From: Aurantiacibacter xanthus
GTDB taxonomy: Bacteria > Pseudomonadota > Alphaproteobacteria > Sphingomonadales > Sphingomonadaceae
Assembly (NCBI RefSeq): GCF_003584015.1
Contig: NZ_QXFM01000095.1
Location: 1 to 64,000 of the forward strand
Length of the DNA stretch: 64,000 bases
Direction: 5' to 3'
A program made the position numbers and the translations under genes. The notes under the pieces are model-generated. The model did not search any database and was not told the origin of the DNA. It worked only from the letters and a program-made list of their open reading frames with translations. This document shows, in pieces, positions 15,081-44,580 of this stretch; positions within the stretch are counted from its first letter, which is position 1; each line of letters begins with the position of its first letter.

Positions 15081-15106
15081 GGTGCGGACTGCCAATCAGG
15101 TGCGGA
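15081..15106 (+). repeat. Direct repeat GGTGCGGA upstream of the argD-like gene
   Basis: GGTGCGGA occurs at 15081-15088 and 15099-15106, 18 bp apart, in the 186-bp gap between the MocR gene at 15168 and the argD-like gene. Direct repeats are a common MocR operator form, but these differ from the repeats upstream of the MocR gene itself, so the link is weak. Confidence 0.3.
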
Positions 15107-15167
15107 TCGCAGATGTTATCTGGGCCGGATAGGATAGGGCCACGCGCTGTGGCGCCAGCCGATGTTC

Positions 15168-29229: not shown

Positions 29230-32200
29230 TCAGAAGATCAGGTTGAAGCCGAGCGAGATCGTCCGCCCGTTCTTGATATAGGCGCGGCTGGCCCCTTCGC
29301 TGCTCGACACGGTCTGCCAGTAGGTGTGCGAGTCGAACAGATTCTGCACCTGCACCTGCACCGACGACTTCTTCAGGAAGCTGCGGCGGAAGGTCAGGTC
29401 GACGAAGCTGTAGGCCTGCTCGTAGGGGTCGTTGCCGAAGTCGTTGATGCCGGCCATGAACCGCGACTGATAGTTCCACGCGCCGTAGACTTCCCAGCCA
29501 TTGCGCTCCCAGAACAGCTGGAGGTTGGCGATGGTCTCGGGCGTCTCCATCAGCGGCAGGGTATAGCCATCCGGGTGCCACGAGAGCCCCGTGGCCGCCT
29601 TCGAGCGTTGCAGCGTGACGTTGCCGCCAATGCCCAGCGAGCCGAACACGCCGGGCAGCCAGTGCAGCAGTTGCTGGCCGCTGATTTCCACGCCGTAGAC
29701 CTCGGCCCACTTGCCGTTGTTGGGCATGGTGATGGCGACGCCTTCCGGGTTCACGTTCACGCCCGCCGTGCCGTGGCGGATGTTGCTGGAGGACGAGCGG
29801 AACAGGAAGTTCTCGATATCCTTGTAGAACACCGCAATCGAGTAGGCCCCGGTGGTGCCGTTGTAGCGTTCGAGCGAGATATCGAAGTTGGTCGAACGCA
29901 GCGGCTTGAGGTCGGGATTGCCCATCTCGATGCCGGTCAGGATCCACTCGCTGGTGGGGTTCTGCACACCGTTGCCATCGGGATCGCGGTCGTAGGAGTA
30001 CTCGCGGGCCGAGCTCATGCGGGCGATGTCGGGCCGGGCAAAGCTGGTCCAGATCGCCGCGCGCAGCTTGGTCTTGCGGTCGATGTCGTAGTTGACGTGG
30101 ACCGAGGGCAGCCAGTTGGTGAAGCTGGTGCGGTCGCGGGTATAGCGTTCGCCGTTGACCGGGTCGGTGTTCCAGGCGTCGATGGTGTTGCGCGTGTTCT
30201 CCATGCGCACACCGGCGATGATCTGCGCGCGCCCGACATAGGCGGTGCCCATCAGGTAGCCCGAGATCACCCGCTCCTCGAAGGTGAAGCTGTCCTCGTC
30301 GGAGATTTCGGCCTGCGACGGGTCGACCGCGAAGCCATCGAACAGGCTGCTGTCGCCATTCTCGGCGCGTTGCAGCTCGGCCATCATGGCATCGTTGTCG
30401 AGCGTGGTGCCAAGGCGATAGTCGCCGGTATAGGCCCCGCCGAACAGGCTGGTAATCTCTTCGCCGTAGAGGTCGGAGAAGTCGGCCAGCGTGCCATCGG
30501 CGTTGAGGTCGAGGAACGAGCCTTCATAGGTGCGGCGGCGCGAGTTGTAGTACTTGGCGCCGGTGCGGATCGTGTCGAGGAAGCCCGAGCCGATCTCCCA
30601 TTCGAGGTTGGCCTGGCCCTGCCACAGCTTCTCGCTCGAACCGCCGATCTCGCCTTCGAGGCCGCTGAAGTTGTATTCGGCCGGGTCCTGCACGCCCGCA
30701 AGTCCGGCCGGGTTCAGCAGCCACTTGGGGAAACGCGCATCTTCGGCGGCCGAGAACAGCACGCCGCGATTGCCGCGCCAGCCATACTTGTCGCTGCGGA
30801 ACTCCAGTTCGTAGCCATCGTCGAGGTTGTCCTCTGACTGCGAGTAGGACACGTCGTAGTCGATCGTCACCGCGTTGAAGCGCGAGACGCCGCCGATGTT
30901 GGCCGAGGCGAGGCTGCCGGTTTCGTTCTTGCCTTCCCAGAACCGGCGCAGGCGGAAGCCAGCCGGGTCCCAGGTGCCCGACTTGCCGACCAGACTATAG
31001 GTCGAACGGGATGAGCGGTCGGCATCGGTGATGCGGCCATCCTTGTCGCGGTCGACGATCTGGGCGGTGGTGTAGCCATAGATCCGGCCCAGCGTATCGT
31101 CGAAGCCGACCACATTGTCATCCGGCTGAAGCAGGCTCGTATCGTCGCGGTTGACCTGCGAGAGGCGGGCCGAATTGCGGCTGGTGTCGTTGCGGAAGTT
31201 CAGGCGGTTGAGAAACTCGGTCTTGCGGAACCGGTTATACTGCCCGCGCAGGTGGAGGTCATGGTTGTCCGAGCGGAAATCGAGGCTCGAATTGACGCCC
31301 CAGCGCTCGACTTCGGTTTCACCGAAGCCCAGGTTCATCCCGCGCAGCACGAAACGGTTGGGGTCCCAGCCCAGCGTCTCGCTGTCGGCATACCAGGTGT
31401 CGGGCTGGTTATCGCCGTCGACCCCGTTGCGCTCGAACCGCGACTGGCGGCGGCTCCAGCTGCCCGAAACGAACAGGCCGAGCTGATCCGAGAACTGGCG
31501 CGAGGCTGCGCCCGAGAACTGACCGCTGAGCGGGGTGTCGTACTTGTCGAGCATGCTGGCCTCGCCCGACAGGCGCAGATAGGTCGGGTCCTGATCGAAG
31601 GCGGTGGGGGTGGAGATATCGACCGAGCCGCCCAGCGCGTCGCCGTCGCGGTCGGGGGTGAGGGTCTTGAAGACGGTGATTTCCTTGATCCCGTCCGGCG
31701 GCAGGACCGAGAGGCGCACGCCGCGATAGAACACATCGTCGCGCGAGCCGGCGCCTCCAAGGCGCACGCCGTTGATCGAATAGTTGTTCAGCTCGGTCGA
31801 GAGGCCGCGCACGGTGATGCGGTCGCCTTCGCCGGTGGTGGCATCGCGCACCGCGTTGACGCCGGGCAGGCGGGCGAGCGCTTCGGAAACGTTGTTCGCG
31901 GGCAGATCGCCCATGTCATCGGCACTGACGGTGTCGGAAATGACATCGGAATCGCGCTTCTTGCCGAGCGAGGCCTGTACGGCTTCGAGATAGCCGGTCA
32001 CGATGATCTCGTTGTGCTCGCCCGGTTCGACGGTCTGCTGCGGGCTCGGCGCGGTGCGGGTCGGTGCCGAACGGGCCGGAGCAGCGGCAGCGGACCGGGT
32101 CGCCCGTGCCGGGGCGGGGGCGGGATCGGCGAGCGAAACGATGATGGTGCGGCCCTGACGGCGGGTTGCGACACCTGCGCCCGCCACGATGCGAGCCAGC

Positions 32201-32457
32201 GCCGTTTCAGCCGTCAGCCGGCCCGAAATCGCGCGGCTGGTGCGGCCACGCAGCACGTCGGACGAGGCGGCGACCTGAATGCCGGTGACGCGCGAATATT
32301 CGCGCAGCGCGCTCGCCAGATCCTGCGACGGGATCGCGAAGCTGAAAGCACTTTCCCCCGAGGCGTAGGCCGGAGTCGAAACCATGGTGAGCGGAATGAT
32401 GGCGCACGAAAGTGCAAGCGCCGTGAGATTGGCGCGACCGGTTTTTGAGCGAAGCAT
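29230..32457 (-). CDS. TonB-dependent transducer-type receptor with STN domain
   Basis: A 1075-residue outer-membrane receptor. After the signal peptide (to about residue 33) comes an STN domain (FAIPSQDLASALREYSRVTG, then TAETALARIVAGAG) that signals to a FecR protein. An Ala/Pro-rich linker and the plug (NEIIVTGYLEAVQASL, NNVSEALARLPGVNAV) follow, then a very large barrel ending LGFNLIF. The GYLEAVQASL-type plug marks the large receptors typical of Caulobacterales/sphingomonads, often for sugars or phosphorylated compounds. ATG 32457 follows AAGGACAGGGACAAA; an earlier ATG at 32520 is less likely. Its partner genes suggest uptake of a phosphate ester. Confidence 0.92.
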   Translation of the reverse strand: MLRSKTGRANLTALALSCAIIPLTMVSTPAYASGESAFSFAIPSQDLASALREYSRVTGIQVAASSDVLRGRTSRAISGRLTAETALARIVAGAGVATRRQGRTIIVSLADPAPAPARATRSAAAAPARSAPTRTAPSPQQTVEPGEHNEIIVTGYLEAVQASLGKKRDSDVISDTVSADDMGDLPANNVSEALARLPGVNAVRDATTGEGDRITVRGLSTELNNYSINGVRLGGAGSRDDVFYRGVRLSVLPPDGIKEITVFKTLTPDRDGDALGGSVDISTPTAFDQDPTYLRLSGEASMLDKYDTPLSGQFSGAASRQFSDQLGLFVSGSWSRRQSRFERNGVDGDNQPDTWYADSETLGWDPNRFVLRGMNLGFGETEVERWGVNSSLDFRSDNHDLHLRGQYNRFRKTEFLNRLNFRNDTSRNSARLSQVNRDDTSLLQPDDNVVGFDDTLGRIYGYTTAQIVDRDKDGRITDADRSSRSTYSLVGKSGTWDPAGFRLRRFWEGKNETGSLASANIGGVSRFNAVTIDYDVSYSQSEDNLDDGYELEFRSDKYGWRGNRGVLFSAAEDARFPKWLLNPAGLAGVQDPAEYNFSGLEGEIGGSSEKLWQGQANLEWEIGSGFLDTIRTGAKYYNSRRRTYEGSFLDLNADGTLADFSDLYGEEITSLFGGAYTGDYRLGTTLDNDAMMAELQRAENGDSSLFDGFAVDPSQAEISDEDSFTFEERVISGYLMGTAYVGRAQIIAGVRMENTRNTIDAWNTDPVNGERYTRDRTSFTNWLPSVHVNYDIDRKTKLRAAIWTSFARPDIARMSSAREYSYDRDPDGNGVQNPTSEWILTGIEMGNPDLKPLRSTNFDISLERYNGTTGAYSIAVFYKDIENFLFRSSSSNIRHGTAGVNVNPEGVAITMPNNGKWAEVYGVEISGQQLLHWLPGVFGSLGIGGNVTLQRSKAATGLSWHPDGYTLPLMETPETIANLQLFWERNGWEVYGAWNYQSRFMAGINDFGNDPYEQAYSFVDLTFRRSFLKKSSVQVQVQNLFDSHTYWQTVSSSEGASRAYIKNGRTISLGFNLIF

Positions 32458-32516
32458 TTTGTCCCTGTCCTTGTGCTTGAAAGCATCGGGATGACGGCGG
32501 GAAATATAAAAACCCG

Positions 32517-32547
32517 ACAAAAAATTTTTGTTACATTTCAGTGAAAT
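32517..32547 (-). promoter_or_regulatory. AT-rich palindromes upstream of the STN receptor gene
   Basis: ACAAAAAATTTTTGT (32517-32531) and ATTTCAGTGAAAT (32535-32547) are two neighbouring palindromes in an AT-rich island of an otherwise GC-rich region, about 60-90 bp before the receptor start. This is the likely promoter for the ECF sigma factor or another regulator; the exact signal is not recognised. Confidence 0.35.
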
Positions 32548-32581
32548 TATTGCAGGTTTTCGACGCGGTCATGGTCTGTGC

Positions 32582-33568
32582 TCAAGAGCGTGAGACAAGC
32601 AGCTGATCGCCATCGTCTTGCCAGCGCAGGCCGTAGATCAGAGCGAGCGTGTCGAGCACTTCGCGCGGGTGATCGAGCTGGAACCGCCCCGAGATCCGCA
32701 GCGCGCCAAGGCCGGGGTCGGTGAGCACGATCGGGCTGTCCGCGCTGCGGTTCACCTGCTCGACCAGATCGTCGAGCGCGGTGTCCTGCGCGTCGAACCA
32801 GCCATCGATCCAGCCCGGTCCGTCGCCTTCCACATCGTCGAGGCTGCGCATGTGCGAGCCCATGATGGCGACCCCGACTCCGGCCGGAACGCGCCATTCG
32901 CCATTGCCCGCCTCGACATTGACGAGCCCGCGATAGACGCGAACCTCGCGCTCGCCATGATCGCGCAGGTTGATGTCGAAAGCGGTTCCGAGCACCGACA
33001 CGCTGGCGCTGCCGGTATCGACGGTAAAGCTGCGGAGCGGTTCGTGGGCGACATCGAAATAGGTCTGCCCGCGCGCCATCGTCACCTTGCGCGACCATGG
33101 GGTGATGCGCACCGACAGCTGGGTCCCGCCGCTCAGGTGCAGCTGCGAGCCGTCGGCCAGTTCCACGATCCGGTCCTCGCCGCGGGGCGCGGAATAGGTG
33201 GTGACGGGGGCGAGCGCACCCTGTGCGATGAGCGCGGCAGGCACGAGCACGATAGCGGCCAGCGCCGCCAGCCGCGCAAGGCGCTTGAGCGACCCGAGCG
33301 GCCCGCGCCCGGTCTGTTCGGCAAAGCCGGGCAGGTCGAGCTGGCCCTCGTCGTTGTCGTTGTGCGGCACGCCCGCTGTGAGCGCGCGGGCAAGGCCATC
33401 GGCGTTCCACACCGAGGCCAGACGCGCATAGCTTTCCAGGTGGCGGGGATCTTCGCTAATCCAGCGGTCGAACTCCGCTGCGATCTCGCTATCCAGCACC
33501 GGGCGGCTCATTCTCTCGATCCAACTGGCTGCCTGGTTATCGAGATCTGCCGTATCTCGCAGTCTCAT
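32582..33568 (-). CDS. FecR-family anti-sigma factor / signal transducer
   Basis: A protein of about 328 residues with the FecR layout. A cytoplasmic N-terminus (AASWIERMSRPVLDSEI, FDRWISEDPRHLESYARL) is followed by one membrane helix near residues 98-118. The periplasmic FecR domain comes next (EDRIVELADGSQLHLS, ARGQTYFDVAHEPLRSFTV, SVLGTAFDI), then a C-terminal STN-like part. It carries the signal from the STN domain of the TonB receptor to the ECF sigma factor. I chose ATG 33568 because it overlaps the sigma stop (ATGA); ATG 33577 is equally open. Confidence 0.9.
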   Translation of the reverse strand: MRLRDTADLDNQAASWIERMSRPVLDSEIAAEFDRWISEDPRHLESYARLASVWNADGLARALTAGVPHNDNDEGQLDLPGFAEQTGRGPLGSLKRLARLAALAAIVLVPAALIAQGALAPVTTYSAPRGEDRIVELADGSQLHLSGGTQLSVRITPWSRKVTMARGQTYFDVAHEPLRSFTVDTGSASVSVLGTAFDINLRDHGEREVRVYRGLVNVEAGNGEWRVPAGVGVAIMGSHMRSLDDVEGDGPGWIDGWFDAQDTALDDLVEQVNRSADSPIVLTDPGLGALRISGRFQLDHPREVLDTLALIYGLRWQDDGDQLLVSRS

Positions 33569-34026
33569 CCGTCCCATCCCGGCCGGTCTATGCCAGCCTT
33601 TTCCATTGCGCGGCGCAGGTCGATCAGGCCGCGTGTGATGTGTTTTTCCACCGCCTTCGGGCTGAGCGACAGATCCTCGCCAATGGCCTGGCAGCTTTCC
33701 TGACCCAGCCGGCGGCGGACCAGCACCTCGCGCCGCAGCCGGGGCATGCGGTTGAGACAGCGCTGGAACACCTCGACCGCGCGGCGCGAATCCATCACCC
33801 GGTCAAGCGAGGGGGTATCGCCCTGGATTTCCGGATCGGGCGCGAGGCCGTGGCGGCTGTCCCAGCGATGGCGGTCGATCAGCAGGTTGTCGGCAATGCG
33901 GAAACCCAGTGCGAACAGGCTGACGATCTCCTTTTCGCGGCTGATTGCGATCAGCCGGGCGAGCGTTTCCTGCGCAATGTCCTCGGCGATATCTATCCGC
34001 GCACCCTGCGCACGCAGATAGCGCAC
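33565..34026 (-). CDS. ECF RNA polymerase sigma factor (FecI-like)
   Basis: At least 153 residues, with sigma region 2 (DIAEDIAQETLARLIAI, FRIADNLLIDRHRW) and region 4 (LPRLRREVLVRRRLGQ-like helix, SLSPKAVEKHITRGLIDLRR). It is coupled to the FecR gene by a 4-bp overlap. GTG 34026 is the only ordinary start codon in frame, yet the frame stays open about 40 codons upstream with sigma-like sequence (PDWAEVQSGLVRYLRAQG). The real N-terminus may therefore use a rare start or be damaged. It should activate the STN receptor and phosphatase genes. Confidence 0.85.
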   Translation of the reverse strand: MRYLRAQGARIDIAEDIAQETLARLIAISREKEIVSLFALGFRIADNLLIDRHRWDSRHGLAPDPEIQGDTPSLDRVMDSRRAVEVFQRCLNRMPRLRREVLVRRRLGQESCQAIGEDLSLSPKAVEKHITRGLIDLRRAMEKAGIDRPGWDG

Positions 34027-34605
34027 GAGCCCGGACTGGACTTCGGCCCAATCCGGAATGCGTGCAGGCTCGCCCTTGGCGAGTGGTCTGGTCTCGTTAC
34101 GCGGCAGAAATCGCCCCCGATATGATCGGCCCGAAGGCTGCCGCTAGCCGCGTTTCATGACAGTTCGGCGACGATTGGAGGAGGCTGGCGCGCCAGCGGG
34201 GCGGACGCCTCTGCTTCAGGGTTTCGAAATGGGCGCTGATGGCCGCGCGTCCCCGATCGTCGGGCACTGCCACCAGCATCTGCGTGCCGGGGATATCGGC
34301 GCCCGATAGGGAGATCCTGAACGTCAAGGTCGATCTCACCATCGTCGATGGCGCGGTGCTGGTCGATCGCAGGCAGGCGCTTTCCTCTCGTTGGAAACAT
34401 GATATTCGGCGGCTACGTAACGCGCATGTAACGGCGGCTGTTGCCGTAAATAACTTACCTCTGCCCCTGTCTTCCGGCCATGAGAGCGCGAGAGAGAGGG
34501 CATTCTGACAGCTTTGGTACTTGCGTTGGCGCTGGAGTGCTGGCGCTAGGCGCCTGCGGGTTGAAATCCTTCTCCGCCAGGTACTGAAACAGAAAAAGAG
34601 TTGTC
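34027..34605. other. 579-bp region between the ECF sigma gene and the hmu-like operon
   Basis: No confident gene. The part next to 34026 continues the sigma factor frame back to a stop near 34146 without a normal start codon. A minus-strand frame at 34097-34342 (81 codons) has no recognisable similarity. On the plus strand a 35-codon frame at 34480-34587 contains LALGAC, which looks like a lipoprotein box, but it lacks a convincing ribosome site. The region must hold the promoter of the operon starting at 34606. I looked for a cobalamin riboswitch and did not find one. Confidence 0.5.
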
Positions 34606-36516
34606 ATGAGGAAGTCCTTCACCCTTGCGCCGCTGTGCGCCTTTTCCCTGCTGCTGCCTGCTACGGCACAGGCCAGCGAGGATGTCGGCGCAGCCCCCGA
34701 CCAGAACGACGAGCGCATCGTCGTCACTGCGAACCGCACGCCGGTTTCGCTCGATCAGGTCGGTCAGAGTGTGACCGTGCTGACCGAGGCGCAGATCGAG
34801 GCCAGCCAGAAGATCGGCGTGACCGAGCTGATCGCGCTGACCCCCGGCGTGCAGTTCCGCCGCAACGGCGGGCCGGGCACGGTGACTTCGGTGTTCATCC
34901 GCGGGGCCGACAGCGGCCAGACGCTGATCCTCTACGACGGCGTGCGCCTGCACGACCCGTCGAGCACCGACGGCGGCGCGACGCTCAGCGATGTCACCAC
35001 CAGCGGCCTGGGCCGGATCGAGATCCTGCGCGGCACCCAGTCGGTGCTCTACGGCAGTCAGGCCATCGGCGGCGTGATCAACATCATCTCGAAGCAGCCG
35101 AGCGAGCCGTTCGAAGCCCGGTTCCAGGCCGAAGCGGGCGAGCTGAACAGCTATCTCGTCAACGGTTCGGTGGGCGGCAAGAGCGGCGGGCTGACCTGGA
35201 ATGCCGGTGCCAGCCATTCGACCTCGGACGGCGTCTCGGCCTTTGCCGCGGGCACCGAGCGCGACGGCTACAAGAACAGCTCGCTCAATGGCCGGATCGG
35301 TTATGCCTTTTCCGACGATGTCTCGCTCGACCTGCGCACCTATTATGCGGAAGGGGATGTCGAATATGACAGCTTCAACGGCGACGGCGCCAACCGCGGG
35401 CTGAACGATAGCTGGGCCAGCTATGCCGGGGTCAACTTCCGCCTGTTCGACCGGCTCTCCAACCGCGTTTCCTATGGCCGCACCGAGATCAACCGGATCA
35501 ACCTCGACGAGACCAATCCGATCAAGCCGGTGCAGACCTTCGACGGCCATGGACGCAGCGACCGGTTCGAATATCAGGGCACCTTCGACCTGGCGGCGGG
35601 TAGCTTCGTGGTCTTCGGCGTCGAATATGCAGAAAACGAGTTCGACGGTTCCTCGGCGACGGTCAGCGTGGGCGACAACACGCTGGGCTTTTACGGCAAT
35701 GTCACGGTCGAGCCGGTCAAGGGGCTGACGCTTACCGGCGGCCTGCGTCATGAGGACCACAGCAACTTCGGCGGGGCCACGGTGGGCGCGGCATCGGTTG
35801 CCTATACGCCCAACGATGGCGAGACCGTGTTGCGCGCCAGCTATTCGGAAGGGTTCAAGGCTCCCGGCCTGTTCCAGCTCTATGCCCCCGGCTACGGCAC
35901 GCCCGATCTTCGGCCCGAAGAGTCCAAGAGCTGGGAAGTGGGCGGTGAGCAGATGTTCGGCGATTTGTTCCGGCTCTCGGCGGTCTATTTCAACCGTGAG
36001 ACCGAGAACCTCGTCTCCTATGTCGGTTGCGGTGCGATCCCCGATAATCCGCGCTGCGCCTCCGATCCCAACCTCTACGGCATTTACGCCAATCAGGGAC
36101 TGGTCGATGCCGAGGGTGTCGAGCTGGGGGCTGGGCTTGAGCTGGGCGGCCTCAGCCTCTCGGCCAACTATACCTATCTCGATGCGCAGTACGCCACCCC
36201 GGGCGATCCCAACAAGGGCAAGCAGCTGACCCGCCGGGCGAAGGACACCTTCAACGCCACCGCCAGCTATACCGCGCCGTTCGGACTGAACCTCGCGACC
36301 ACGGTGAGCGTGGTGGGCGACCACTTCAACGATGCGGCCAACACCGTGGTGGTGCCCGGCTACACCACGGTCGACCTGCGTACATCTTACCCGATCAACG
36401 ATGCGGTCGAGATCTATGCCCGCGTCGAAAACCTGTTCGACGAGGACTACCAGACCATACTCAACTACGGCGCGATGCCGCGGATGATCTACGGCGGGGT
36501 GCGGGTGCGGCTGTGA
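34606..36516 (+). CDS. TonB-dependent receptor of the chelatase operon (BtuB/HmuR-like)
   Basis: A 636-residue outer-membrane receptor of the smaller BtuB/haem type. The signal peptide ends near TAQA (residue 23). The plug shows IVVTANRTPVSLDQVGQSV, IRGADSGQTLILYDGVRL and RIEILRGTQSVLYGSQAIGG, all close to BtuB-like plugs. A 22-strand-size barrel follows and ends GGVRVRL. It heads an operon whose other genes encode a PepSY protein, an ExbB/ExbD-like pair and a periplasmic CobN-family protein, so the cargo is likely a metal tetrapyrrole (haem or a corrinoid). No haemophore or HmuY-like gene is seen beside it. Confidence 0.9.
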   Translation: MRKSFTLAPLCAFSLLLPATAQASEDVGAAPDQNDERIVVTANRTPVSLDQVGQSVTVLTEAQIEASQKIGVTELIALTPGVQFRRNGGPGTVTSVFIRGADSGQTLILYDGVRLHDPSSTDGGATLSDVTTSGLGRIEILRGTQSVLYGSQAIGGVINIISKQPSEPFEARFQAEAGELNSYLVNGSVGGKSGGLTWNAGASHSTSDGVSAFAAGTERDGYKNSSLNGRIGYAFSDDVSLDLRTYYAEGDVEYDSFNGDGANRGLNDSWASYAGVNFRLFDRLSNRVSYGRTEINRINLDETNPIKPVQTFDGHGRSDRFEYQGTFDLAAGSFVVFGVEYAENEFDGSSATVSVGDNTLGFYGNVTVEPVKGLTLTGGLRHEDHSNFGGATVGAASVAYTPNDGETVLRASYSEGFKAPGLFQLYAPGYGTPDLRPEESKSWEVGGEQMFGDLFRLSAVYFNRETENLVSYVGCGAIPDNPRCASDPNLYGIYANQGLVDAEGVELGAGLELGGLSLSANYTYLDAQYATPGDPNKGKQLTRRAKDTFNATASYTAPFGLNLATTVSVVGDHFNDAANTVVVPGYTTVDLRTSYPINDAVEIYARVENLFDEDYQTILNYGAMPRMIYGGVRVRL

Positions 36517-36533
36517 AGCGGCTCGCTCGCTAG

Positions 36534-37724
36534 ATGCGCAAGGCCCTGTTGATCGCGCACCGGTGGACCGGGGTGATCGTCGCTCTGGCGGTGATCATCA
36601 CCGGGCTCACCGGGGCGATCATTCCCTATCAGGACCAGATCCGTTCGCTGGTGGCGGGCGAGGTATGGGACGCTGCGCCGCCCGAGCCGGGCGCGCGCGT
36701 CCTGTCCGGGCTGGAGCTGAAGCGCATCGTCGAGGCGGAAACGGGCGGCGAGGTTGGCTTTATCCAGCTCGTGCCCGCCTCGGATCATGCCCATTCGGTC
36801 TTCGTCAGCGCCCCAAGCGGCGAACCCCCGCTGCCGTTTCGGCAGTTCTTTCTCGACCCCTACACCGGCGAGATCCGCGCGCGGGTGAACTTCGCCGAGC
36901 TTGCAGACGGCCCGATCAATATCGCCCCGTTCCTCGTCTCGCTGCATTACAGCCTTGCCGCCGGACAGACCGGACGACTGCTGCTTGGTGTGGCGGCGCT
37001 GGCGTGGCTGCTGCTGTCGCTGGCGGGGCTGGTGCTGACTTTCCCGCGCAAGGGCCCGCGCAAGGGAAGCCCGACCTTCTGGCGCGACTGGGCGGGGGCA
37101 TGGCGCTTGCGGCGCAAGGGCGCGCGCAAGGTGCGCCTGTACGACTTTCATCGCGCGACCGGCCTGTGGCTGCTGCCGTTCACCGTGGTCTTCACCTGGT
37201 CGGCGGTCGCCTTCAACCTCGATGCGGTGCATCAGCCGGTGCAGGCGATGCTGGGCGGGAAGGGGCTGTTCGCGCCGGTCGACAATCCCGCCCCCGATCC
37301 GGGCGCGGCGATGTCTGCCGAGCAGGCCGAACAGGTCGGCGCGCGGCTGATGCGCGAGCAGGCCGAGGCGCGCGGCTTCACCATTCGCGGGCCCGAGGCG
37401 CTGAGCTTCCGGCCCTATGCCCATGTCATTGGCTACTACGCGCGCACCAGCCTCGATGGGCCGACCGGGAACGGTTCGACCGCGGTATGGTTCGATCAGG
37501 CTTCGGGGCGGCTCATCGCGTTCCGCCATCCCTATGGCGAGACCTCCGCCGATACTTTCGATAAGGTGCTGCGGCTGCTGCACACCGGCGAGATGTTCGG
37601 CGGGGTCTACAAGCTGGCGATCAGCCTGTTCGGCCTGCTGATTTCGGCGACGACCATTGCGGGCGTGGTGATGTGGTTGAAGAGCAAGCGGCGGCCTGCG
37701 CGCAGTCGGAGAGAGGTCCGGTGA
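36534..37724 (+). CDS. PepSY-associated membrane protein (PiuB-like)
   Basis: A 396-residue inner-membrane protein with four main helices. The first spans residues 13-33 (HRWTGVIVALAVIITGLTGA), two lie in the middle around residues 140-225, and the last is near 350-375. Between them are periplasmic PepSY-type segments, as in IGYYARTSLDG and FDQASGRLIAFRHPYGE. Paired histidines such as His11 and the HRATG pair fit haem-binding, and such proteins are often linked to siderophore or haem uptake, where a reductase role is proposed. It starts 17 bp after the receptor gene; the next gene overlaps its stop (TGATG). Confidence 0.85.
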   Translation: MRKALLIAHRWTGVIVALAVIITGLTGAIIPYQDQIRSLVAGEVWDAAPPEPGARVLSGLELKRIVEAETGGEVGFIQLVPASDHAHSVFVSAPSGEPPLPFRQFFLDPYTGEIRARVNFAELADGPINIAPFLVSLHYSLAAGQTGRLLLGVAALAWLLLSLAGLVLTFPRKGPRKGSPTFWRDWAGAWRLRRKGARKVRLYDFHRATGLWLLPFTVVFTWSAVAFNLDAVHQPVQAMLGGKGLFAPVDNPAPDPGAAMSAEQAEQVGARLMREQAEARGFTIRGPEALSFRPYAHVIGYYARTSLDGPTGNGSTAVWFDQASGRLIAFRHPYGETSADTFDKVLRLLHTGEMFGGVYKLAISLFGLLISATTIAGVVMWLKSKRRPARSRREVR

Positions 37725-38302
37725 TGCTTCCCTATACCATCCCGCTGATCTGGCTGCTCGCCCTGCTGGCGGCAGCGATCCATCTGCGCGACGGCGGGCG
37801 CACGGTTCGCTCGGCGCTGTGGGCAGCGGCAGGCTTTGCGCTGGTGCTGCCCGCTGCGCTGTGGCTCGCGCCGCAGCCGAACTGGATCGCGGTGCTGGTC
37901 ACGATCGGGGCGATGGCGCGCCTGATCGCCGGTGGCGGCAAACGAAGCGGGCCGTTGCTGGCGGGGATCAGCGCCGGACTGGCTGCCTCCCTTGTCGCGG
38001 CGGCAGGGATTGAGCCGTGGCCGGCAGCGATGGTGACCTTCGCTGCCTTGCTGGCGGCCTTCGGCTTGCAGTCCGGCTCAGCCAGGGCCAGCCCGCGTGA
38101 CGAGCATCTGCTGGTGGGCGTGGCCCTGATGCTGCCGGTGGTCGGCCTTTCGGGCGATCTCATATACGGCTGGCAAGCAGCTGGAATGCTGGGGGAAGGT
38201 GCCAAGGCTGCCGGTGCATTGGAGCCGCCGGTCTGGGCGCTGGCAATTGTGGGGCTGGCCATTGTGGCCGGACTGGTGAGAGGATTGTGGGCAAGCCGAT
38301 GA
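37724..38302 (+). CDS. Unrecognised multi-pass membrane protein of the chelatase operon
   Basis: A 192-residue protein with about six hydrophobic stretches (for example YTIPLIWLLALLAAAIHL, WAAAGFALVLPAALWLA and VWALAIVGLAIVAGLVRGLW). I do not recognise a family. It sits between the PepSY and ExbB-like genes, sharing a TGATG start with the former and an ATGA overlap with the latter, so it must be made with them. It could be an extra channel or scaffold component. Confidence 0.75.
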   Translation: MLPYTIPLIWLLALLAAAIHLRDGGRTVRSALWAAAGFALVLPAALWLAPQPNWIAVLVTIGAMARLIAGGGKRSGPLLAGISAGLAASLVAAAGIEPWPAAMVTFAALLAAFGLQSGSARASPRDEHLLVGVALMLPVVGLSGDLIYGWQAAGMLGEGAKAAGALEPPVWALAIVGLAIVAGLVRGLWASR

Positions 38303-38919
38303 ATTTTGGAGACGTGCTGGAACAGGGCCTGTTCGCCCTCGGTCAGGTGTTGCGCCTGCCGGTGTTCATCCTGCTGTGGATCTGCGTGGCGGCAACGCTG
38401 TTCTATGCGGCGAGCTATCTCGTGGTCGCCGTCAGGCGCCGCAAGCAGCGCGCCGGGTTCGATATCAAGCAGTGGCTGCAACAGGACCGGGTGCTCGATG
38501 CCGATCCCGCGCGCCGGGCCGAGCTTCCCGGCAGCCTGGGCGCGATGCTGGTCGATATTCAGGCGCTCGATGCCCATCAGGCATTGCACCATGGCGGGCT
38601 CGAAAACGTGGTCGCCGAATATGAGGAGAAGCTGCGCCACGGTCTCGACGGGCCGCGCGCGCTGGTGAAGATCGGGCCCAGCCTCGGCCTGATCGGCACG
38701 CTGATCCCGATGGGCACCTCGCTTGCGGCCATGGCGGGCGGCAACCTCGGCGCGATGGCGGGGCAGATGGTGGTGGCCTTCACCAGCACGATCATCGGAC
38801 TTGCCACCGGCACGGTCGCCTATGGCCTCGTGGCGCTGCGGCAGGGCTGGGTCAGCGCCTCGATCCGCGAGCAGCGCTATCTCGCCGAAGTCGCCGCCGC
38901 CGAGCTGGAGAACCGCTGA
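38299..38919 (+). CDS. MotA/TolQ/ExbB-like proton channel protein
   Basis: A 206-residue protein with the three-helix ExbB layout: a helix near residues 21-46, a cytoplasmic domain, then two helices at about 121-148 and 152-180. The channel signature is KIGPSLGLIGTLIPMGTSLA and the last helix is VVAFTSTIIGLATGTVAYGL, with the threonines that line the proton path in ExbB/TolQ. It overlaps the preceding gene (ATGA) and the next (TGATG). With the downstream ExbD-like protein it should form a proton-driven motor dedicated to the chelatase, not the general TonB system. Confidence 0.88.
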   Translation: MNFGDVLEQGLFALGQVLRLPVFILLWICVAATLFYAASYLVVAVRRRKQRAGFDIKQWLQQDRVLDADPARRAELPGSLGAMLVDIQALDAHQALHHGGLENVVAEYEEKLRHGLDGPRALVKIGPSLGLIGTLIPMGTSLAAMAGGNLGAMAGQMVVAFTSTIIGLATGTVAYGLVALRQGWVSASIREQRYLAEVAAAELENR

Positions 38920-39308
38920 TGGGCCGCTTCATCAAGCTTGCCGCCCCCGATGAGCCCGCCGAGGAAGATCCGCTGGCGGGCGTCGCCAACCTGTTCGACG
39001 CTTCGATCGTGTTCATCGTCGGGCTGATGATCACGTTGTTCTCGGTCTACAACATGGGCGATCTGATGAGCGGCGAGGGCACCGTCACCATGATCAAGAC
39101 CGACGCAAACGGGATGCAGGAGATCGTGGTCAAGGAAGGTGAGACGATCACCGCTTACAAAGTCACCGGCGAGGAAGGCTCGGGCGACGGCGAGCGGCTC
39201 GGCTCGGCCTACCGGCTCGCGAACGGCCAGATCATCTACGTGCCCGACGGCGAAACCCCTGAGGCGGAAAACCCCGAGACGGCGGCAGGCAGTGAGCAGG
39301 CTCCTTAA
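38919..39308 (+). CDS. DUF2149-type, ExbD-like membrane protein
   Basis: A 129-residue protein with a short cytoplasmic N-terminus, one helix at about residues 26-46 and a periplasmic domain of about 80 residues. Asp27 opens the helix (NLFDASIVFIVGLMITLF), exactly where ExbD, TolR and MotB keep their essential proton-carrying aspartate. I assign it to the DUF2149 group from memory of its pairing with ExbB- and CobN-like genes. The start shares a base with the ExbB-like stop, and the chelatase gene begins 17 bp before its end. Confidence 0.78.
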   Translation: MGRFIKLAAPDEPAEEDPLAGVANLFDASIVFIVGLMITLFSVYNMGDLMSGEGTVTMIKTDANGMQEIVVKEGETITAYKVTGEEGSGDGERLGSAYRLANGQIIYVPDGETPEAENPETAAGSEQAP

Positions 39309-42300
39309 GTCCTTCTTCCTGCTGTGGGCGCTGCTGGCCCTGCCCGCCGCGCTGGCCGCGCAGGACGAGCCGGAGGTGATCCGGCTCGGCTACCTGTTTT
39401 CGGATGGGCAGACACCGGGCACCGTCGCCGCGCTGCGCGCGCTGTTCGCGGAGCGGCCGGACCTCAGGGACCGGATCGAAGTGCGCATTCTCACCGAAAG
39501 CTCGTTTTCCGACACCGATGCCGCTGCCTTCCGGCAGAACGACGTGCTGGTGTTCGACGTCATGAACCAGCAGATGCTCGATCAGTTCGACGAGCAGAAC
39601 AAGGCCGACCTGCTGGCCGAAACGGGCCGCGTTCTCGGGGTGGGCGTGGGGCTTCAGGGCGAGGGGCACTACACCGAACTGGGCGTCGAATGGGATGCCC
39701 GCGCACGGGCCTACTGGGAGCATGGCGGGCTCTCGAACCAGCTCGGCCTGCTCAAGCTCGCCTTGCAGCGCGCGGGGGTCGAGGGGCTGGAGCTGCCCGA
39801 GCCGCAGCTCTCGCTCGATTTTGGCTACTACTATCCCGATGGCGGCACGGGCCGCGTGTTTGCCGACTGGGATGCCTTCCAGCAATGGCGGGCCGAGCAC
39901 GGCAAGCTGAAGCAAGGCGCGCCGCGGGTGGCGATCGGCTTCTTCAAGGCGAACTACTATTCCGGCGACATGGTGCTGATCGACGCGCTGATAGCCGAGG
40001 TCGAGGCGCGAGGGGCCGAGGCGGTGCCGATCTTCGGCTATCCCGGCGCCGTGGCCTTCCGCGAACTGCTCGGCACGGGTGACACTGCGCGCGCCGATGT
40101 CGGGCTGGGGCTGTCGTTCCAGTTCAACGATGCCGAGGCGGCAAAGCTGCTTGAAGAGGTCGGCATTCCGGTCATCAACCTCATCAGCCTCTATGGCCGC
40201 AGCGAGGAGGACTGGCGCAATTCGCCGACCGGGCTTTCGGCCTTCGAGGGCACCTTCAACCTCGCCTCGCCCGAGCTGGCAGGCACCGTTGCGCCCACGG
40301 TGGTGGGCACGAAGGAGCGGGTGAACGATCCGGCGACCGGGCTGACCTCGGTCGTCACCAGACCTATCGCCGAGCGGGTCGACATGGCGGTGCGCCGTGC
40401 GCTCAACTACGCCGACCTCTCCCGCACCGCCAATGCGGATAAGCGCCTGGCGATCATGTACTACAGCTACCCGCCGGGCCGGGCGGGCATCGCCGCAAGC
40501 TATCTCAACGTGGCGGAATCGCTTGAACGGATTATGCAGCGCCTGTCCGAGGAAGGCTACGACATCGGCGGCGAACCCCCGAGCGCCGAGGCGATCCTCG
40601 CCGACATCACCAGCCGCGCACGCAACGTGGGCAGCGATGCGCCGGGTGAACTGGCCGAGCTGATCGCGCTGGGCGGCGCGCAGCGGGTGCCGCTGGCGCA
40701 GTATCGGGCCTGGCTCGATGCGCTCGATCCGTCACTGCGCGAAAAGATGCTGGCCGACTGGGGCGATCCGGCCGACAGCATGCTGATGACCGAGCATCGC
40801 GGCGAGGAGGTCAACCTGATCGTCCCCGCGCTCGAATACGGCAATATCCGCCTGATGCCGCAGCCTTCGCGCGCCTGGGGCGAAGACCTCGAAATGCTCT
40901 ACCACGCGCAGAACCTCGCGCCGAGCCACCAGTATCTCGCCGCCTATGCCTGGGTGCGCGAGACATTCGATGCCCATGCTGTGGTCCATGTCGGCACCCA
41001 CGGCACGCTCGAATGGCTCGACGGGCGCGATGCGGGGCTTGGCCCCGACGATGCTCCCGATGCCATGATCGGCGATCTGCCCGACGCCTATATCTACAAC
41101 GTCGACGTGGTCGGCGAAGGGCTGGTCGCGCGGCGGCGCGGGATGGCGACGCTGGTCGATCACATGGTGCCGCCCTTCGTGCGCGGCGGCCTCACCGAAG
41201 ACCTCGCCCGCCTGAGCGAGCTGATGAACGACCACATCCAGAACGAGAGCAAGAACCCCGAACTGGCCGCGATCTACGCCCGGCAGGCGCGCGATCTGGC
41301 GGTGGAGCTGGGCATCGCCAAGGATCTCGATCTCGATCCGGCATCATCGTGGTCCGACGAGGAACTGCACCGGGTGGAGGATTACATGATCGCGCTGCGC
41401 GGCCAGATCATTCCCTATGGCCTCCACGCCTTCGGCCGCACCCCTGCGCCCGAGGCGGTGGACAGCACGGTGGAAGCGATCCTCAGCATCGACCGCTCGG
41501 CACTGCCCGAGGCGGTGAACCTGCTCGGCGAGGAGATGGAGCAGCGCATTCTCGCCTCGGGCCCGCGCGAGCTGGACGGGCTGATGCTGGCGCTTGGCGG
41601 GCGGTTCGTGCCCGCAGGCAAGGGCGGTGAGCCGGTGCGCAACCCCGACAGCTATCCCACCGGCGCGAACTTCTACGGCATCGACCCCGACAAGATCCCC
41701 AAGCCCGCCGCCTGGGAGATGGGCAGCACGCTCGCGCAGCAGATGCTTGACGATCACGTCGCGAAGCACGGACGCTACCCGGAGAAAATCTCGTTCGTGA
41801 TCTGGGGCGACGAGACAATGCGCCACGAGGGCGTGCTCGAAAGCCAGATCTTCTACATGCTGGGGACGCGGCCCGTGTGGGATGCGCGCGGGCGGGTGGT
41901 GGACGTGAAAGTGATCCCGCGCGAGGAGCTGGGCCGACCGCGCGTCGATATCGTGATCGCCTCGACCGCTTCGGGCCTGTTCGGCGGGCTGACCCGGCTG
42001 ATGGACAAGGCGGTGCAGGCGGTGCGCGTGCTCGACGAGCCCGACAACCAGATCCGCCAGCACTATATCGAGATCAAGCAGGCGCTGATCGCCAGCGGCG
42101 TGCCCGAGGCCGAGGCCGACCAGATGGCGGGCGTGCGTATCTTCGACGAGCCGCCCGGCACCTTCAACCTCAACACCTCCGACATCGTCGCCACCAGCGG
42201 ATCGTGGGACAGCGACGCCGGCTTCGCCAACGAATATATCCGCAAGATGGGCCACGCCTATGGCAACGGTTACTGGGGCCAGCCGATGCCCGATGTGTTT

Positions 42301-43419
42301 GCGCTGAACCTCTCGGGCACTGAGAAGGTCGTCCACTCGAACTCGACCATGCTCTATGGCACGCTCGATAACGACGACATGTATATGTACATGGGGGGGC
42401 TCTCCTCGGCGATCCGCAGCATCGACGGGGCCGACCCCGAACTGGTCATCACCGACACCCGCGATCCGGGCAATCCGGCGATGATCGGGCTTGAACAGTT
42501 CATTGGCCGCGAGTTCCGCTCGCGCTACGTCAACCCGAAGTGGATCGAGGGGATGCAGGCCGAGGGCTATGCCGGGGCCGGGGCGATGCGCGAATTCGTC
42601 GAATATCTGTGGGGCTGGGAGGCGACCACCACCGAAATCATTGACGATTCGATGTGGAACCAGACCTACGAAACCTATGTGCTCGACCGCCAGAACCTCG
42701 GCATGAAGCAGTGGTTCGACGCAAATTCGCCCTATGCCTATCAGGACATCACCGCACGAATGATCGAGACGATCCGCAAGGACTACTGGAACGCCGATGA
42801 GGAGACCCGCGCGACGCTGGTGCGCGAATATCTGGAGAACGTGGCCGAGCACGGGGTGAACTGCACGGCGGTGTCCTGCGGCAACGGGCGGATGCTCGAA
42901 TATGTCTATGCCGAGGCGGAGCGGACGGGCCTTCCGGCCGATCTGATCGCGCGCACCAAGGGGGCCTTCGAGACCGCCATGGGCCGCACGATCAGCGAGG
43001 CCGCCCGCGAGTTGGAGGCCTTTGTCGCCAGCAACGATGCGCGTGCCGAAGCCGAACGGGCCGAGCGGCGCGAACTGGTCTCGCGCCTGCCGTCCTCCAC
43101 GCGGCCGAACGACGCAGCGCGCGAGGCAAGGGGGGAAGGCACCGAGCCGGTGAGGGCACCCACGTCGCGCGCTGCATCGGGCGGGCCGACTGCCCCGCCT
43201 GCAACGGGCGATGCAGCCCCCGCCGGGCAACCTGCGCTGACCGGTCAACTCATGTCGGAGGAGATCACAAGGCGCGAAATTCCATTGCTGAAGGAGCCTG
43301 TGGTTGCGGCGATTTCGCTGCGTGATCTTGCCGGGGCTCTGGCGCTGTTCCTGATCGTGTTGCTTGGCTGGCAGTTCACCGATCGGCGGCGTGGCCGAGG
43401 CTCACTCGCTTCTGCCTGA
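39292..43419 (+). CDS. Periplasmic, membrane-anchored CobN/HmuS-family chelatase
   Basis: A 1375-residue CobN/BchH-family protein. Unlike cytoplasmic CobN, it starts with a signal peptide (SRLLKSFFLLWALLALPAAL, then AAQDE) and ends in one membrane helix (about residues 1343-1362) followed by a basic tail, so the catalytic part should face the periplasm. Family marks include VHVGTHGTLEWLDGRDAG (residues 565-582), YNVDVVGEG and PGTFNLNTSDIVATSGSW. GTG 39292 is chosen because it begins the signal peptide. There are no CobS/CobT or ChlI/ChlD partners; the ExbB/ExbD-like pair is encoded just before. Closest known role is HmuS, which removes iron from haem. Confidence 0.88.
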   Translation: MSRLLKSFFLLWALLALPAALAAQDEPEVIRLGYLFSDGQTPGTVAALRALFAERPDLRDRIEVRILTESSFSDTDAAAFRQNDVLVFDVMNQQMLDQFDEQNKADLLAETGRVLGVGVGLQGEGHYTELGVEWDARARAYWEHGGLSNQLGLLKLALQRAGVEGLELPEPQLSLDFGYYYPDGGTGRVFADWDAFQQWRAEHGKLKQGAPRVAIGFFKANYYSGDMVLIDALIAEVEARGAEAVPIFGYPGAVAFRELLGTGDTARADVGLGLSFQFNDAEAAKLLEEVGIPVINLISLYGRSEEDWRNSPTGLSAFEGTFNLASPELAGTVAPTVVGTKERVNDPATGLTSVVTRPIAERVDMAVRRALNYADLSRTANADKRLAIMYYSYPPGRAGIAASYLNVAESLERIMQRLSEEGYDIGGEPPSAEAILADITSRARNVGSDAPGELAELIALGGAQRVPLAQYRAWLDALDPSLREKMLADWGDPADSMLMTEHRGEEVNLIVPALEYGNIRLMPQPSRAWGEDLEMLYHAQNLAPSHQYLAAYAWVRETFDAHAVVHVGTHGTLEWLDGRDAGLGPDDAPDAMIGDLPDAYIYNVDVVGEGLVARRRGMATLVDHMVPPFVRGGLTEDLARLSELMNDHIQNESKNPELAAIYARQARDLAVELGIAKDLDLDPASSWSDEELHRVEDYMIALRGQIIPYGLHAFGRTPAPEAVDSTVEAILSIDRSALPEAVNLLGEEMEQRILASGPRELDGLMLALGGRFVPAGKGGEPVRNPDSYPTGANFYGIDPDKIPKPAAWEMGSTLAQQMLDDHVAKHGRYPEKISFVIWGDETMRHEGVLESQIFYMLGTRPVWDARGRVVDVKVIPREELGRPRVDIVIASTASGLFGGLTRLMDKAVQAVRVLDEPDNQIRQHYIEIKQALIASGVPEAEADQMAGVRIFDEPPGTFNLNTSDIVATSGSWDSDAGFANEYIRKMGHAYGNGYWGQPMPDVFALNLSGTEKVVHSNSTMLYGTLDNDDMYMYMGGLSSAIRSIDGADPELVITDTRDPGNPAMIGLEQFIGREFRSRYVNPKWIEGMQAEGYAGAGAMREFVEYLWGWEATTTEIIDDSMWNQTYETYVLDRQNLGMKQWFDANSPYAYQDITARMIETIRKDYWNADEETRATLVREYLENVAEHGVNCTAVSCGNGRMLEYVYAEAERTGLPADLIARTKGAFETAMGRTISEAARELEAFVASNDARAEAERAERRELVSRLPSSTRPNDAAREARGEGTEPVRAPTSRAASGGPTAPPATGDAAPAGQPALTGQLMSEEITRREIPLLKEPVVAAISLRDLAGALALFLIVLLGWQFTDRRRGRGSLASA

Positions 43420-44580
43420 TAGCGCGAAATGCGCGGTTGAACTGGTGACAGTGTCGTGGCCGCCACCTTCGGTCATCACGTAGTCGTTCCATGCGAGGAG
43501 AAACCCCTCGCGATAGGCGCGGATGGCGGGGACCGAGGAGTTTTCCGCGCTCTGGCTGAGGTTGCGCGGCGGCGAGAGCGGCTTGCCCTTGCTGTCGAAG
43601 GTCTGCAGGAAAATATCGCGCTGGCCGTTGTCATCGTCGCTCCAGGCAAGACCGAGCCTCGGGCCATTCCAGGTGAGATAGGCGCCGATGGACTGGGCTG
43701 GCCCATGGGTGATGCGTCGGGCCTCGCTTATCGGCGAAAGCTCGCCATCGCGCAGCGCGAACAGCTGGAGGTAGACTTCCTGATTGCCGTCGCGCTCATC
43801 GAACCAGGTCAGTGCAGCCGTGCCATCGGGCCCGAATTGCAGGTCGGGGTACAGCGAGGCGTGGCCATCGGGCGGCGTCAGCGTGATGGCTTTGGCGTCG
43901 TCGCCCTCGACCATGGCCAGCCGCGCTTCGTCGCTGCCGTCATCGAGCGCAGCATCGTAGATGACGAAGAACCGTTCGCCCAGCACCGCGGCATTGAGGT
44001 TCCACGTATCGTGATCGGCGCGGGCAATCTGCCGGGGCGCGCCAAGCGGGCGTCCATCGACGCCGAACCGTCGATGCATGACGCGCATCGCCCCCGTATC
44101 GTCCTGCGAGAGCCACGCGACATGCAGGGCTTCGCCCATGTGGCGCACCACCGGATTTTTCGCCTTGCCGCCATCCTGCAACGGGACGAGCCATTGCCGG
44201 GTGCCCGAAAGGTCAAGCCCGGCCAACCAGGCCTGAAGGCGTCCGCTCTCCCGGTCGCGGCCATACCAGGCGACCACCAGCCCGCCATCCACGGCGATCA
44301 GATCAGGCTCGTAGGCGTCAAATCCCGGTGGGCTGATCCGCCTTGGAGAGCCGTCGGGCCGACCAGCCGGATCGAGCGCCTGCAGGTAAATTGCGGCCTC
44401 GTCTCCGCGCCCGCCGTGCCAGGCGGCGAAGGCGGCGGGGTCGGCATTGGCAAGGCTCAGTTCGTGTGCGCGTGGCGCTGTTTCCTCACCTCCCTGACAG
44501 CTGGCGAGCAGGGCCAGAGCGCCGATGCTCGCCAGGGTTTGCGATGGGACGGCGAGCGTGAGGATAGTCCGCAATTGCAT
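43402..44580 (-). CDS. Predicted lipoprotein with beta-propeller-like repeats
   Basis: A 392-residue exported protein of unknown function. The N-terminus has a lipoprotein box LLASC (Cys28), so it should be lipid-anchored. The rest is built from repeated blade-like units of the type LVVAWYGRDRESGRLQAWL, LHVAWLSQDDTGAMRVMHRR, AALTWFDERDGNQEVYLQLF and LGLAWSDDDNGQRDIFLQTF, each about 45-55 residues, which suggests a six- or seven-bladed propeller. It overlaps the 3' end of the chelatase gene by 18 bp tail to tail. A link with that operon is not shown. Confidence 0.75.
   Translation of the reverse strand: MQLRTILTLAVPSQTLASIGALALLASCQGGEETAPRAHELSLANADPAAFAAWHGGRGDEAAIYLQALDPAGRPDGSPRRISPPGFDAYEPDLIAVDGGLVVAWYGRDRESGRLQAWLAGLDLSGTRQWLVPLQDGGKAKNPVVRHMGEALHVAWLSQDDTGAMRVMHRRFGVDGRPLGAPRQIARADHDTWNLNAAVLGERFFVIYDAALDDGSDEARLAMVEGDDAKAITLTPPDGHASLYPDLQFGPDGTAALTWFDERDGNQEVYLQLFALRDGELSPISEARRITHGPAQSIGAYLTWNGPRLGLAWSDDDNGQRDIFLQTFDSKGKPLSPPRNLSQSAENSSVPAIRAYREGFLLAWNDYVMTEGGGHDTVTSSTAHFALSGRSE

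Follow-up and report, generated by a model that had tools for sequence, protein, structure and literature searches.

Removal of iron from haem by HmuS, a CobN-superfamily protein of the hmuYRSTUV operons of Bacteroidota, was demonstrated in 2025. According to the available text of one source, purified HmuS is active without partners for 1–2 turnovers and requires reduced haem, whose reduction route is described as not known; the His of its HxGTHG motif is essential, and His-1209, Glu-1212, a Met-rich insert and His-254 are given as the features defining HmuS (PMC12583661). The available parts of the hmu papers assign HmuU/HmuV to powering of the receptor, or HmuTUV to haem transport (PMC12583661, PMC13227078). 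In Pseudomonas aeruginosa, PA1921-1925 are reported to be up-regulated when zinc is depleted, with Zur binding in vitro to the promoter of PA1922 (PMC4542158, PMC8531726). Here, an operon encoding another protein of this superfamily is described in a stretch of 64,000 nucleotides from the aerobic alphaproteobacterium Aurantiacibacter xanthus (GCF_003584015.1, contig NZ_QXFM01000095.1, positions 1 to 64,000), the whole of which is called the window below. The operon may be a periplasmic metal-release system, in which a redox metal is released reductively from a chelate with power from an ExbB/DUF2149 pair; we judge this reading to be about evenly balanced between right and wrong.

Operon Organization

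Six coupled open reading frames (ORFs), all on the + strand, occupy positions 34606-43419, as the sequence-only reading described. They encode a TonB-dependent receptor (TBDR; 34606..36516; Pfam PF00593 and PF07715), whose best NCBIfam match is TIGR01779 (BtuB) at 335.6 bits, under the cut-off of 599.7; a PepSY_TM protein (36534..37724; PF03929, 169.7 bits against a cut-off of 28.8); a membrane protein, gene 3, in the place of HmuT/DUF2162 (37724..38302); an ExbB/TolQ/MotA-like protein (38299..38919; MotA_ExbB PF01618, 41.2 bits); a DUF2149 protein (38919..39308; PF09919, 98.5 bits); and a protein of the CobN/HmuS/ChlH superfamily (39292..43419; CobN-Mg_chel PF02514, 1010.7 bits). The first two genes are separated by 17 bases, and the remaining neighbours touch or overlap. 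Gene starts are mechanical calls, and for the CobN-like gene we chose GTG 39292 as the most likely start, which gives 1375 aa. The family matches of the operon ORFs are too strong for chance, and all agree with the families first named, gene 3 having 0 matches in Pfam or NCBIfam. A profile comparison of gene 3 with DUF2162 gave no detectable similarity. The predicted structures of the DUF2149 protein and gene 3 (mean pLDDT 53.8 and 51.3) are too poor for a fold search. Neither CobS/CobT or ChlI/ChlD genes, the ATPase partners whose absence had been pointed out before, nor a TonB gene is found inside the operon; Rfam families at gathering score number 0 in the window, and sigma-70-like promoters 0 at 33900-43900.

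The CobN-Like Protein Belongs to a Third Clade

By hydropathy, on which the export and anchor calls rest instead of SignalP, the CobN-like protein starts with a hydrophobic stretch at residues 4-22 followed by an A-L-A-A-Q word, and ends with a second one at about 1340-1363, with arginines after it. Both hydrophobic ends are present in the relatives L005, L006, L008 and L009, and only the first in L007 at the threshold used. The protein is thus predicted to be exported and C-terminally anchored, and the signal-peptide-like start and anchor proposed by the sequence-only reading hold. These five relatives, with 59–71% identity, were obtained from a genome collection via exact peptide words. L007 is titled a Bordetella parapertussis metagenome-assembled genome; the start of its TBDR resembles, by eye, an acidobacterial carboxypeptidase-type receptor, and we presume that the label may be wrong. 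Relatives of the PepSY_TM protein are encoded in L006 and L007, and those of gene 3 in L006, L007 and L008.

The best PDB match of the CobN-like protein is HmuS (9d26, 480 bits), with CobN and ChlH next. His-538 in the HFG(T/A)HG motif of HmuS is kept as His-570 in HVGTHG, while His-1209 and Glu-1212 (LSLDHxxEFMGG) are replaced by Asp-1029 and Met-1032 in the word LDNDDMYMYMGG, and the position of His-254, which with Met-79 ligates haem at site 1 of HmuS, is Phe in 6/6 rows of the window clade. The Met-rich insert of domain IV is absent: this region has 43 residues with 2% Met, compared with 335 and 332 residues in the HmuS-clade proteins L054 and L101, the row of 9d26 being a fragment that is uninformative for insert length. 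The column of Met-79 is likewise uninformative, with Arg even in L054 and L101. Furthermore, where true CobN has HxGKHG(N/T)LEW, the window protein reads HVGTHGTLEW. Judged by these residues, it is neither HmuS nor a cytoplasmic CobN.

In a 55-row tree, made by a quick method with SH-aLRT support only, the window protein and L005-L009 form a group with support 100, which joins Trichlorobacter L050, Runella L051 and L079 (9 rows, support 99) and is separate from the HmuS, CobN and ChlH clades; the grouping with cytoplasmic CobN that would have spoken against the sequence-only reading is not seen. Holding the window clade and HmuS as one clade is rejected (p-AU 0.0074; 27 rows, LG+G4). The tree thus places the protein in a third clade, whose sister group holds relatives under riboswitch control or linked to hydrogenase genes. 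Of the label “Hmu-like” in the sequence-only reading, kinship with HmuS and the hmu operons at the superfamily level and the operon's own ExbB-like partner stand; in the sense of a haem enzyme the label does not fit the absence of three HmuS features, the different clade and a receptor whose best match is a BtuB model, under its cut-off.

The active-site words differ by clade, the clade letters being our own and derived from the 55-row tree and these words. The window clade has LDNDDM(Y/F)MYMGG and the HmuS clade LSLDHVYEFMGG; the C clade has STDHPFEYLGG or ATDHPFEYLGG (the host's own second system, L055, L074, L076, L077, L102), the B clade DDPF(Q/E)YFG, the E clade DNNDAFDYLGG or a near form together with HxGRHSTYEF, and in true CobN GKHG(N/T)LEW goes with a DSDD or DAND word. 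In the F-clade proteins L086 and L094 the HxGTHG motif is absent from the alignment, with ExbB, DUF2149 and Zur-like sites kept; their chemistry is perhaps different. L101, from a genome (G060) of the same order as the window, encodes an HmuS-clade protein with the HmuS active-site word and the long domain IV insert. In a sample of 196 genomes from the order, the window protein scores 3112 bits in its own genome and at most 481 bits in any other, and DUF2149 occurs in 9/385 sampled genomes of the class (7 above cut-off) and 17/398 of the phylum, the host genome included in both counts.

Proposed Mechanism

From the parts and order of the operon, and the superfamily, clade and exported, anchored form of its CobN-like product as read from the DNA, the following mechanism is proposed. 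The receptor would bring a metal chelate through the outer membrane, to be bound at His-570/Asp-1029 in the central cleft of the CobN-like protein, which would be held on the periplasmic side of the inner membrane. The PepSY_TM protein, proposed as a candidate inner-membrane reductase, would give electrons and so ease release of the metal. Together, the ExbB-like channel and the DUF2149 protein, for which an ExbD-like role is proposed, would act on the CobN-like protein as a proton-driven motor, setting it in motion in place of the AAA+ ATPase that works with cobalto- and magnesium-chelatase. This motor would open or close the cleft through the anchored ends, so that the metal leaves, and the freed ion would enter via an ordinary importer.

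The steps are not equally secure. Removal of the metal, rather than insertion, is quite probable; coupling of the motor to the chelatase is moderately likely; and iron as the metal is an even call. The carrier is most likely a haem-like or other tetrapyrrole chelate, and haem itself is a possible substrate about which we are doubtful. A redox metal, with iron favoured, is suggested because a PepSY protein is present and HmuS needs reduced haem. Iron is favoured also because a weaker form of a promoter element described below lies near TBDR, PepSY and siderophore-interacting protein genes, and because the host has no B12-binding domain or cobalamin riboswitch.

The ExbB/DUF2149 Pair Accompanies the Chelatase

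Genes for ExbB and DUF2149 lie near the chelatase gene, with gene centers within 6.5 kb, in 37/40 exported-type loci. The exceptions are L052 with neither, L101, whose locus runs into a contig end, and L108 with ExbB only. In the CobN and BchH clades, ExbB or DUF2149 is found in 0/10 loci. The 40 loci consist of 19 from DUF2149 searches, 10 found by CobN similarity in the order, 6 plasmid matches (7 records taken of 40 listed among 159), 3 relatives found by exact peptide words, the window and the host's own second system. Because 19 of them were found through DUF2149, its presence there was given beforehand; of the 21 loci that CobN similarity alone brought in (L094-L102, L108, L050-L055, L005-L009), 18 have both partners. 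The similarity search in the order covered 18 places from 15 of the 41 matching genomes, and most other matches (one-piece, about 32%, 1200–1350 aa) were assumed to be BchH. Outside these counts stand L073 and L075, whose chelatase gene is absent or truncated where a contig ends and which both have ExbB and DUF2149, L047 and L048 with weak DUF2149 matches, and L065, a twin of L045. L052, on a Cupriavidus campinensis plasmid (7551-16615), carries an exported-type CobN-like gene with a CobW-like ORF (by eye), an adjoining CobN of the true clade and 0 matches to ExbB or DUF2149.

By hydropathy, the DUF2149 protein has a single hydrophobic helix, the acid Asp-27 at the start of the helix, and then a hydrophilic part. 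An acid occupies this position in 41/41 members (40 D, 1 E), and the word NLxDxxLV resembles ExbD words such as FVDVLLVVL and FIDIMLVLL. When DUF2149 is compared with seven ExbD-type proteins by hhalign, the acids are aligned in a weak match (P 0.0026, probability 4.7; control P 0.4). In the ExbB-like protein, Thr-138, numbered from GTG 38287, is conserved in 42/42 of the set.

The same pair could serve the receptor. ExbB and DUF2149 would then energize the TBDR or transport the chelate across the inner membrane, with the CobN-like protein acting independently or as a passive chaperone, in line with the roles published for HmuU/HmuV or HmuTUV and with the 1–2 turnovers of HmuS alone, as far as the available text of these papers goes (PMC12583661, PMC13227078). 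Against this, the window operon has no TonB gene, and in L050 a distinct ExbB-ExbD-TonB set belongs to the same gene run as the ExbB/DUF2149 pair. Furthermore, L089-L091 have the pair beside the chelatase gene and no receptor match within 6.5 kb. Methanosarcina acetivorans, an organism without an outer membrane, is the sole one of 14 control genomes with DUF2149 (PF09919) and is among the five controls with PF02514. The pair associates with the chelatase, not with the receptor, and service to the receptor is a rather improbable explanation. The sequence-only idea that a motor replaces the AAA+ ATPase gains from the constancy of the pair beside the chelatase, the separate set of L050 and the case of M. 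acetivorans; the published hmu roles differ from it, and it keeps its inferential character.

Metal-Related Control Sorts by Clade

Cobalamin riboswitches, searched for in all 40 loci, occur in 11. In clade A, L050 has two directly before the TBDR, near B12 and cobalt-transport genes, and L079 (505-14095, - strand) runs in the order riboswitch, TBDR, DUF2162, ExbB, DUF2149, Peripla_BP_2-CbiZ fusion, CobN-like, CbiK and Peripla_BP_2; its operon also holds a second ExbB/ExbD-like pair. L051, on a Runella slithyformis plasmid (4881-12915), has no riboswitch and lies between hypABF and hypCDE in a nickel hydrogenase cluster, and its module is possibly a nickel version. The membrane protein of L051 shows a weak likeness to NicO/DsbD, under the cut-offs. 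A riboswitch is present in 6/7 loci of the E clade, the exception being L091, and the two E-clade receptors tested match BtuB best (563.6 and 466.2 bits, both under cut-off). B3 has it in 2/2 loci, directly before the TBDR in L088 and at a distance of about 7 kb or more in L087, and the C clade in 1/6, namely L055, where it lies after DUF2149. It is absent from the window clade (0/4), B (0/11), B2 (0/2), F (0/2), the HmuS clade (0/2) and L052.

Fur-like, Zur-like and NikR-like sites were sought with consensus words, and the p values of the Fur-like and Zur-like sites come from 200 Markov shuffles per promoter, uncorrected for the several promoters per locus. A Fur-like site (p up to 0.05) is found in the receptor or ExbB promoter of 10/11 B-clade loci, the exception, L053, having one before a second TBDR, and in 2/2 loci of B2; the single B receptor tested exceeds the cut-off of the haem/haemoglobin model (471 versus 323.75). 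A Zur-like site (p up to 0.05) is found in 5/6 C-clade loci, all except the host's own copy, and in 2/2 of the F clade. CobW-type genes accompany the C-clade loci L074, L076 and L077, and DUF1826, which a figure legend draws within Zur-regulated COG0523 clusters (PMC2770081), is present in L004, L076 and L077. Some sites cross the pattern: L099 and L085 have Zur-like ones, and Fur-like ones precede a second TBDR in L094 and the DUF2149 gene in L086. The HmuS-clade loci, L051 and L052 have neither type of site. Overall, the type of control, whether Fur-like site, Zur-like site, cobalamin riboswitch or hydrogenase-maturation cluster, sorts by clade.

Promoter Element and Neighbors in the Window Clade

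At the window, L006, L007 and L008, there is neither a riboswitch nor a convincing Fur-like or Zur-like site; for L007 the p-tested search covered the ExbB promoter only and the pattern search the whole locus, and the contigs of L005 and L009 end before the operon promoters. What the window, L006 and L008 share is a conserved promoter element, CSGTAAWTWACTT (34444..34456, +), about 150 bases before the TBDR start of the window, which recurs in L006 upstream of both the PepSY gene and the TBDR, and in L008 upstream of the TBDR. It has 4 matches in 1.36 Mb of fetched DNA, from which sites, however, the pattern itself was built. In the host genome there are 2 exact CSGTAAWTWACTT sites and 0 for the reversed pattern, and position 6408 of L005, near the contig end, has a 26.2-bit match. 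With a matrix made from the window-clade sites, two further sites of at least 19 bits are found in 536 kb of the host's DNA, where about 0.03 would be expected. The 19.6-bit one precedes a TBDR gene flanked by a siderophore-interacting protein gene upstream and a PepSY gene downstream; the link of the element to iron rests on this one site.

A PepSY gene is present in 3/4 informative loci of the window clade (the window, L006 and L007). TIGR01779 is the best model also for the receptors of L008 (252.3 bits) and L006 (232.7 bits).

Outside the operon, a conserved neighbor on the opposite strand (43402..44580, -) encodes a predicted lipoprotein with a lipobox (by eye) and propeller-like W-words, spaced 51 residues apart, of which the window copy has five, with room for seven. 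Relatives lie beside the chelatase gene in L005, L006 and L009. Considered as BtuG or XusB, it gave no sequence match to either, and it has no notable family match. In Bacteroides, a seven-bladed propeller lipoprotein is reported to pair with BtuB (PMC10404256), and in Xus a TBDR, a propeller lipoprotein and a PepSY protein are described for siderophore iron (PMC13142918); because such lipoproteins serve B12 receptors (BtuG) as well as siderophore receptors (XusB), this neighbor leaves the metal undecided. Divergent from the operon are genes for an ECF sigma factor, FecR and an STN-domain TBDR (29230-34026, - strand).

The Metal and Its Carrier

Several observations speak against iron release as outlined above. 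A Fur-like site was not found before the window operon, nor a convincing match to the Zur or NikR patterns. The second exact CSGTAAWTWACTT site of the host lies in a ydbH/ydbL-like region (by eye), the other site of at least 19 bits precedes a gene read by eye as encoding a GH3 enzyme, and an additional 213 kb of host DNA yielded no more element sites of at least 15 bits. L008 has no PepSY match. The host also has an ordinary haem-iron route, a cluster of haem oxygenase, Slam, HphA haemophilin and a TBDR-type ORF (L116, G000:C113:14000-33000, 9290-15568), which a TonB-like ORF adjoins (by eye). The link of DUF2149 with ExbD by profile is weak. Finally, cobalamin riboswitches control the sister-clade loci L050 and L079, L051 lies among nickel hydrogenase genes, and the window receptor itself is best matched as BtuB.

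The riboswitches of L050 and L079 and the BtuB match of the window receptor fit a system for corrinoids, in which a BtuB-like receptor would import a cobamide or cobalt-free corrin and the CobN-like protein would remove or insert cobalt in the periplasm. Consistent with it are the best match of the L008 and L006 receptors to the same BtuB model, the CbiZ, CbiK and two Peripla_BP_2 domains encoded at L079, the active-site DNDD common to the window clade and its sister clade, the BtuB-paired propeller lipoprotein reported from Bacteroides (PMC10404256), and the other hosts of the window clade, 4/5 of which have a B12-binding domain and 4/5 a cobalamin riboswitch. The host of the window differs. 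In its genome, 4.38 Mb in 146 contigs and 99.86% complete, there are 0 cobalamin riboswitches, of which 8/14 controls have one, and 0 B12-binding domains (PF02310), of which 12/14 controls have one; a B12-dependent class II ribonucleotide reductase was not searched. Supply of a corrinoid cofactor in this host is therefore unlikely. Moreover, no window-clade locus searched has a riboswitch, and the window receptor is far under the BtuB cut-off, whereas the two E-clade receptors reach 466 and 564 bits, also under it. B12 cofactor supply was accordingly set aside for the host and retained as a rival for the clade; for the operon we consider a corrinoid substrate rather improbable.

Release of zinc or nickel, as suggested for other clades, is very unlikely here. 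It would accord with the Zur control reported for P. aeruginosa PA1922-1925, with the position of the Runella relative among hyp genes, and with a second system of the host. Indeed, the host has two PF02514 genes, the second of which, on contig C137, encodes a protein with hydrophobic ends in a C-clade locus (L004, G000:C137:78000-97999, 6721-14066, - strand) with CobN-like, TBDR, ExbB-like, DUF2149 and DUF1826 genes and the word STDHPFEYLGG; it looks like the zinc type despite having no convincing Zur-like site before it. This second system may already fill the zinc role, the window operon is not preceded by a Zur-like or NikR-like site, and a PepSY reductase has no clear use for zinc or nickel.

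A cobaltochelatase for aerobic B12 synthesis, with CobT from elsewhere in the genome, has a negligible chance: family membership and a CobT gene on host contig C7 (L114, 7956-9776, - strand), beside which no CobS-like ORF is evident by eye, CobS not having been searched, would allow it, but it is contradicted by location and context, namely the exported and anchored form predicted by hydropathy, a motif other than GKHG(N/T)LEW, a place outside the CobN clade and the lack of PF02310. No cytoplasmic CobN was found in the host genome, and CobT alone is no proof of a cobaltochelatase because Caulobacter, the only one of the 14 controls with CobT, has no PF02514 match. The sequence-only reading had named cobS/cobT genes elsewhere as telling against it; a cobT does exist on another contig, yet CobT could not serve the window protein, since this ATPase is cytoplasmic and the window protein is predicted to be periplasmic. 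Reductive release of a redox metal, most likely iron, from a chelate stays the preferred reading.

A Wider Class and Comparison with Known Systems

Beyond the window, we tentatively suggest, at somewhat less than even strength, a class of proton-driven periplasmic chelatases with an ExbB/DUF2149 motor instead of the AAA+ motor of class I chelatases, split by metal (haem iron, zinc, cobalt or corrinoids, nickel) into clades under matching control, the window clade having its own membrane reductase. In the literature searched, to the extent of the text available, neither the motor idea nor the pattern of metal by clade was found. The PepSY protein would be a candidate reductase for the chelatase, and Asp-27 and Thr-138 offer sharp test points for the motor. 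Matching the control element to the metal by clade gives a first guess of the metal for each orphan CobN-like protein, and the pattern is relevant to the unexplained operon with which P. aeruginosa responds to zinc starvation. Should the motor idea be true, the same enzyme family is driven by two unrelated engines.

Among known systems, hmuYRSTUV of Bacteroidota shares with the window operon a CobN-superfamily protein that is periplasmic, anchored at both ends and has the catalytic His, together with a TBDR, a membrane protein, an ExbB-like protein and HmuV partners (DUF2149 in the HmuY-linked locus L054), according to the parts available (PMC12583661, PMC13227078). Unlike it, the window operon lacks HmuY and has another gene order, a PepSY gene and a chelatase of a separate clade, and its host is an alphaproteobacterium with haem oxygenase. 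PA1921-PA1925 of P. aeruginosa likewise bring together TBDR, CobN-like, ExbD-named and DUF2149 genes (PMC4542158, PMC8531726, PMC9431628, PMC11761036, PMC13083405), but they are Zur-controlled, and the available portions of these sources report no PepSY gene. The cobN cluster of Trichlorobacter (Geobacter) lovleyi pSZ77 (L050; PMC3403914, seen in part) has the same order of TBDR, membrane protein, ExbB, DUF2149 and CobN-like genes; its CobN-like protein is of the sister clade, with 39.6% identity, its membrane protein is DUF2162, and no PepSY gene is present in the stretch shown. XusABC of Bacteroides resembles the front end, with its TBDR, propeller lipoprotein and PepSY protein, and differs in its siderophore substrate and in that the available text names no chelatase, ExbB or DUF2149 (PMC13142918). 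The window operon can thus be taken as a variant of the HmuS kind, and it offers a lead towards a larger class divided according to metal.

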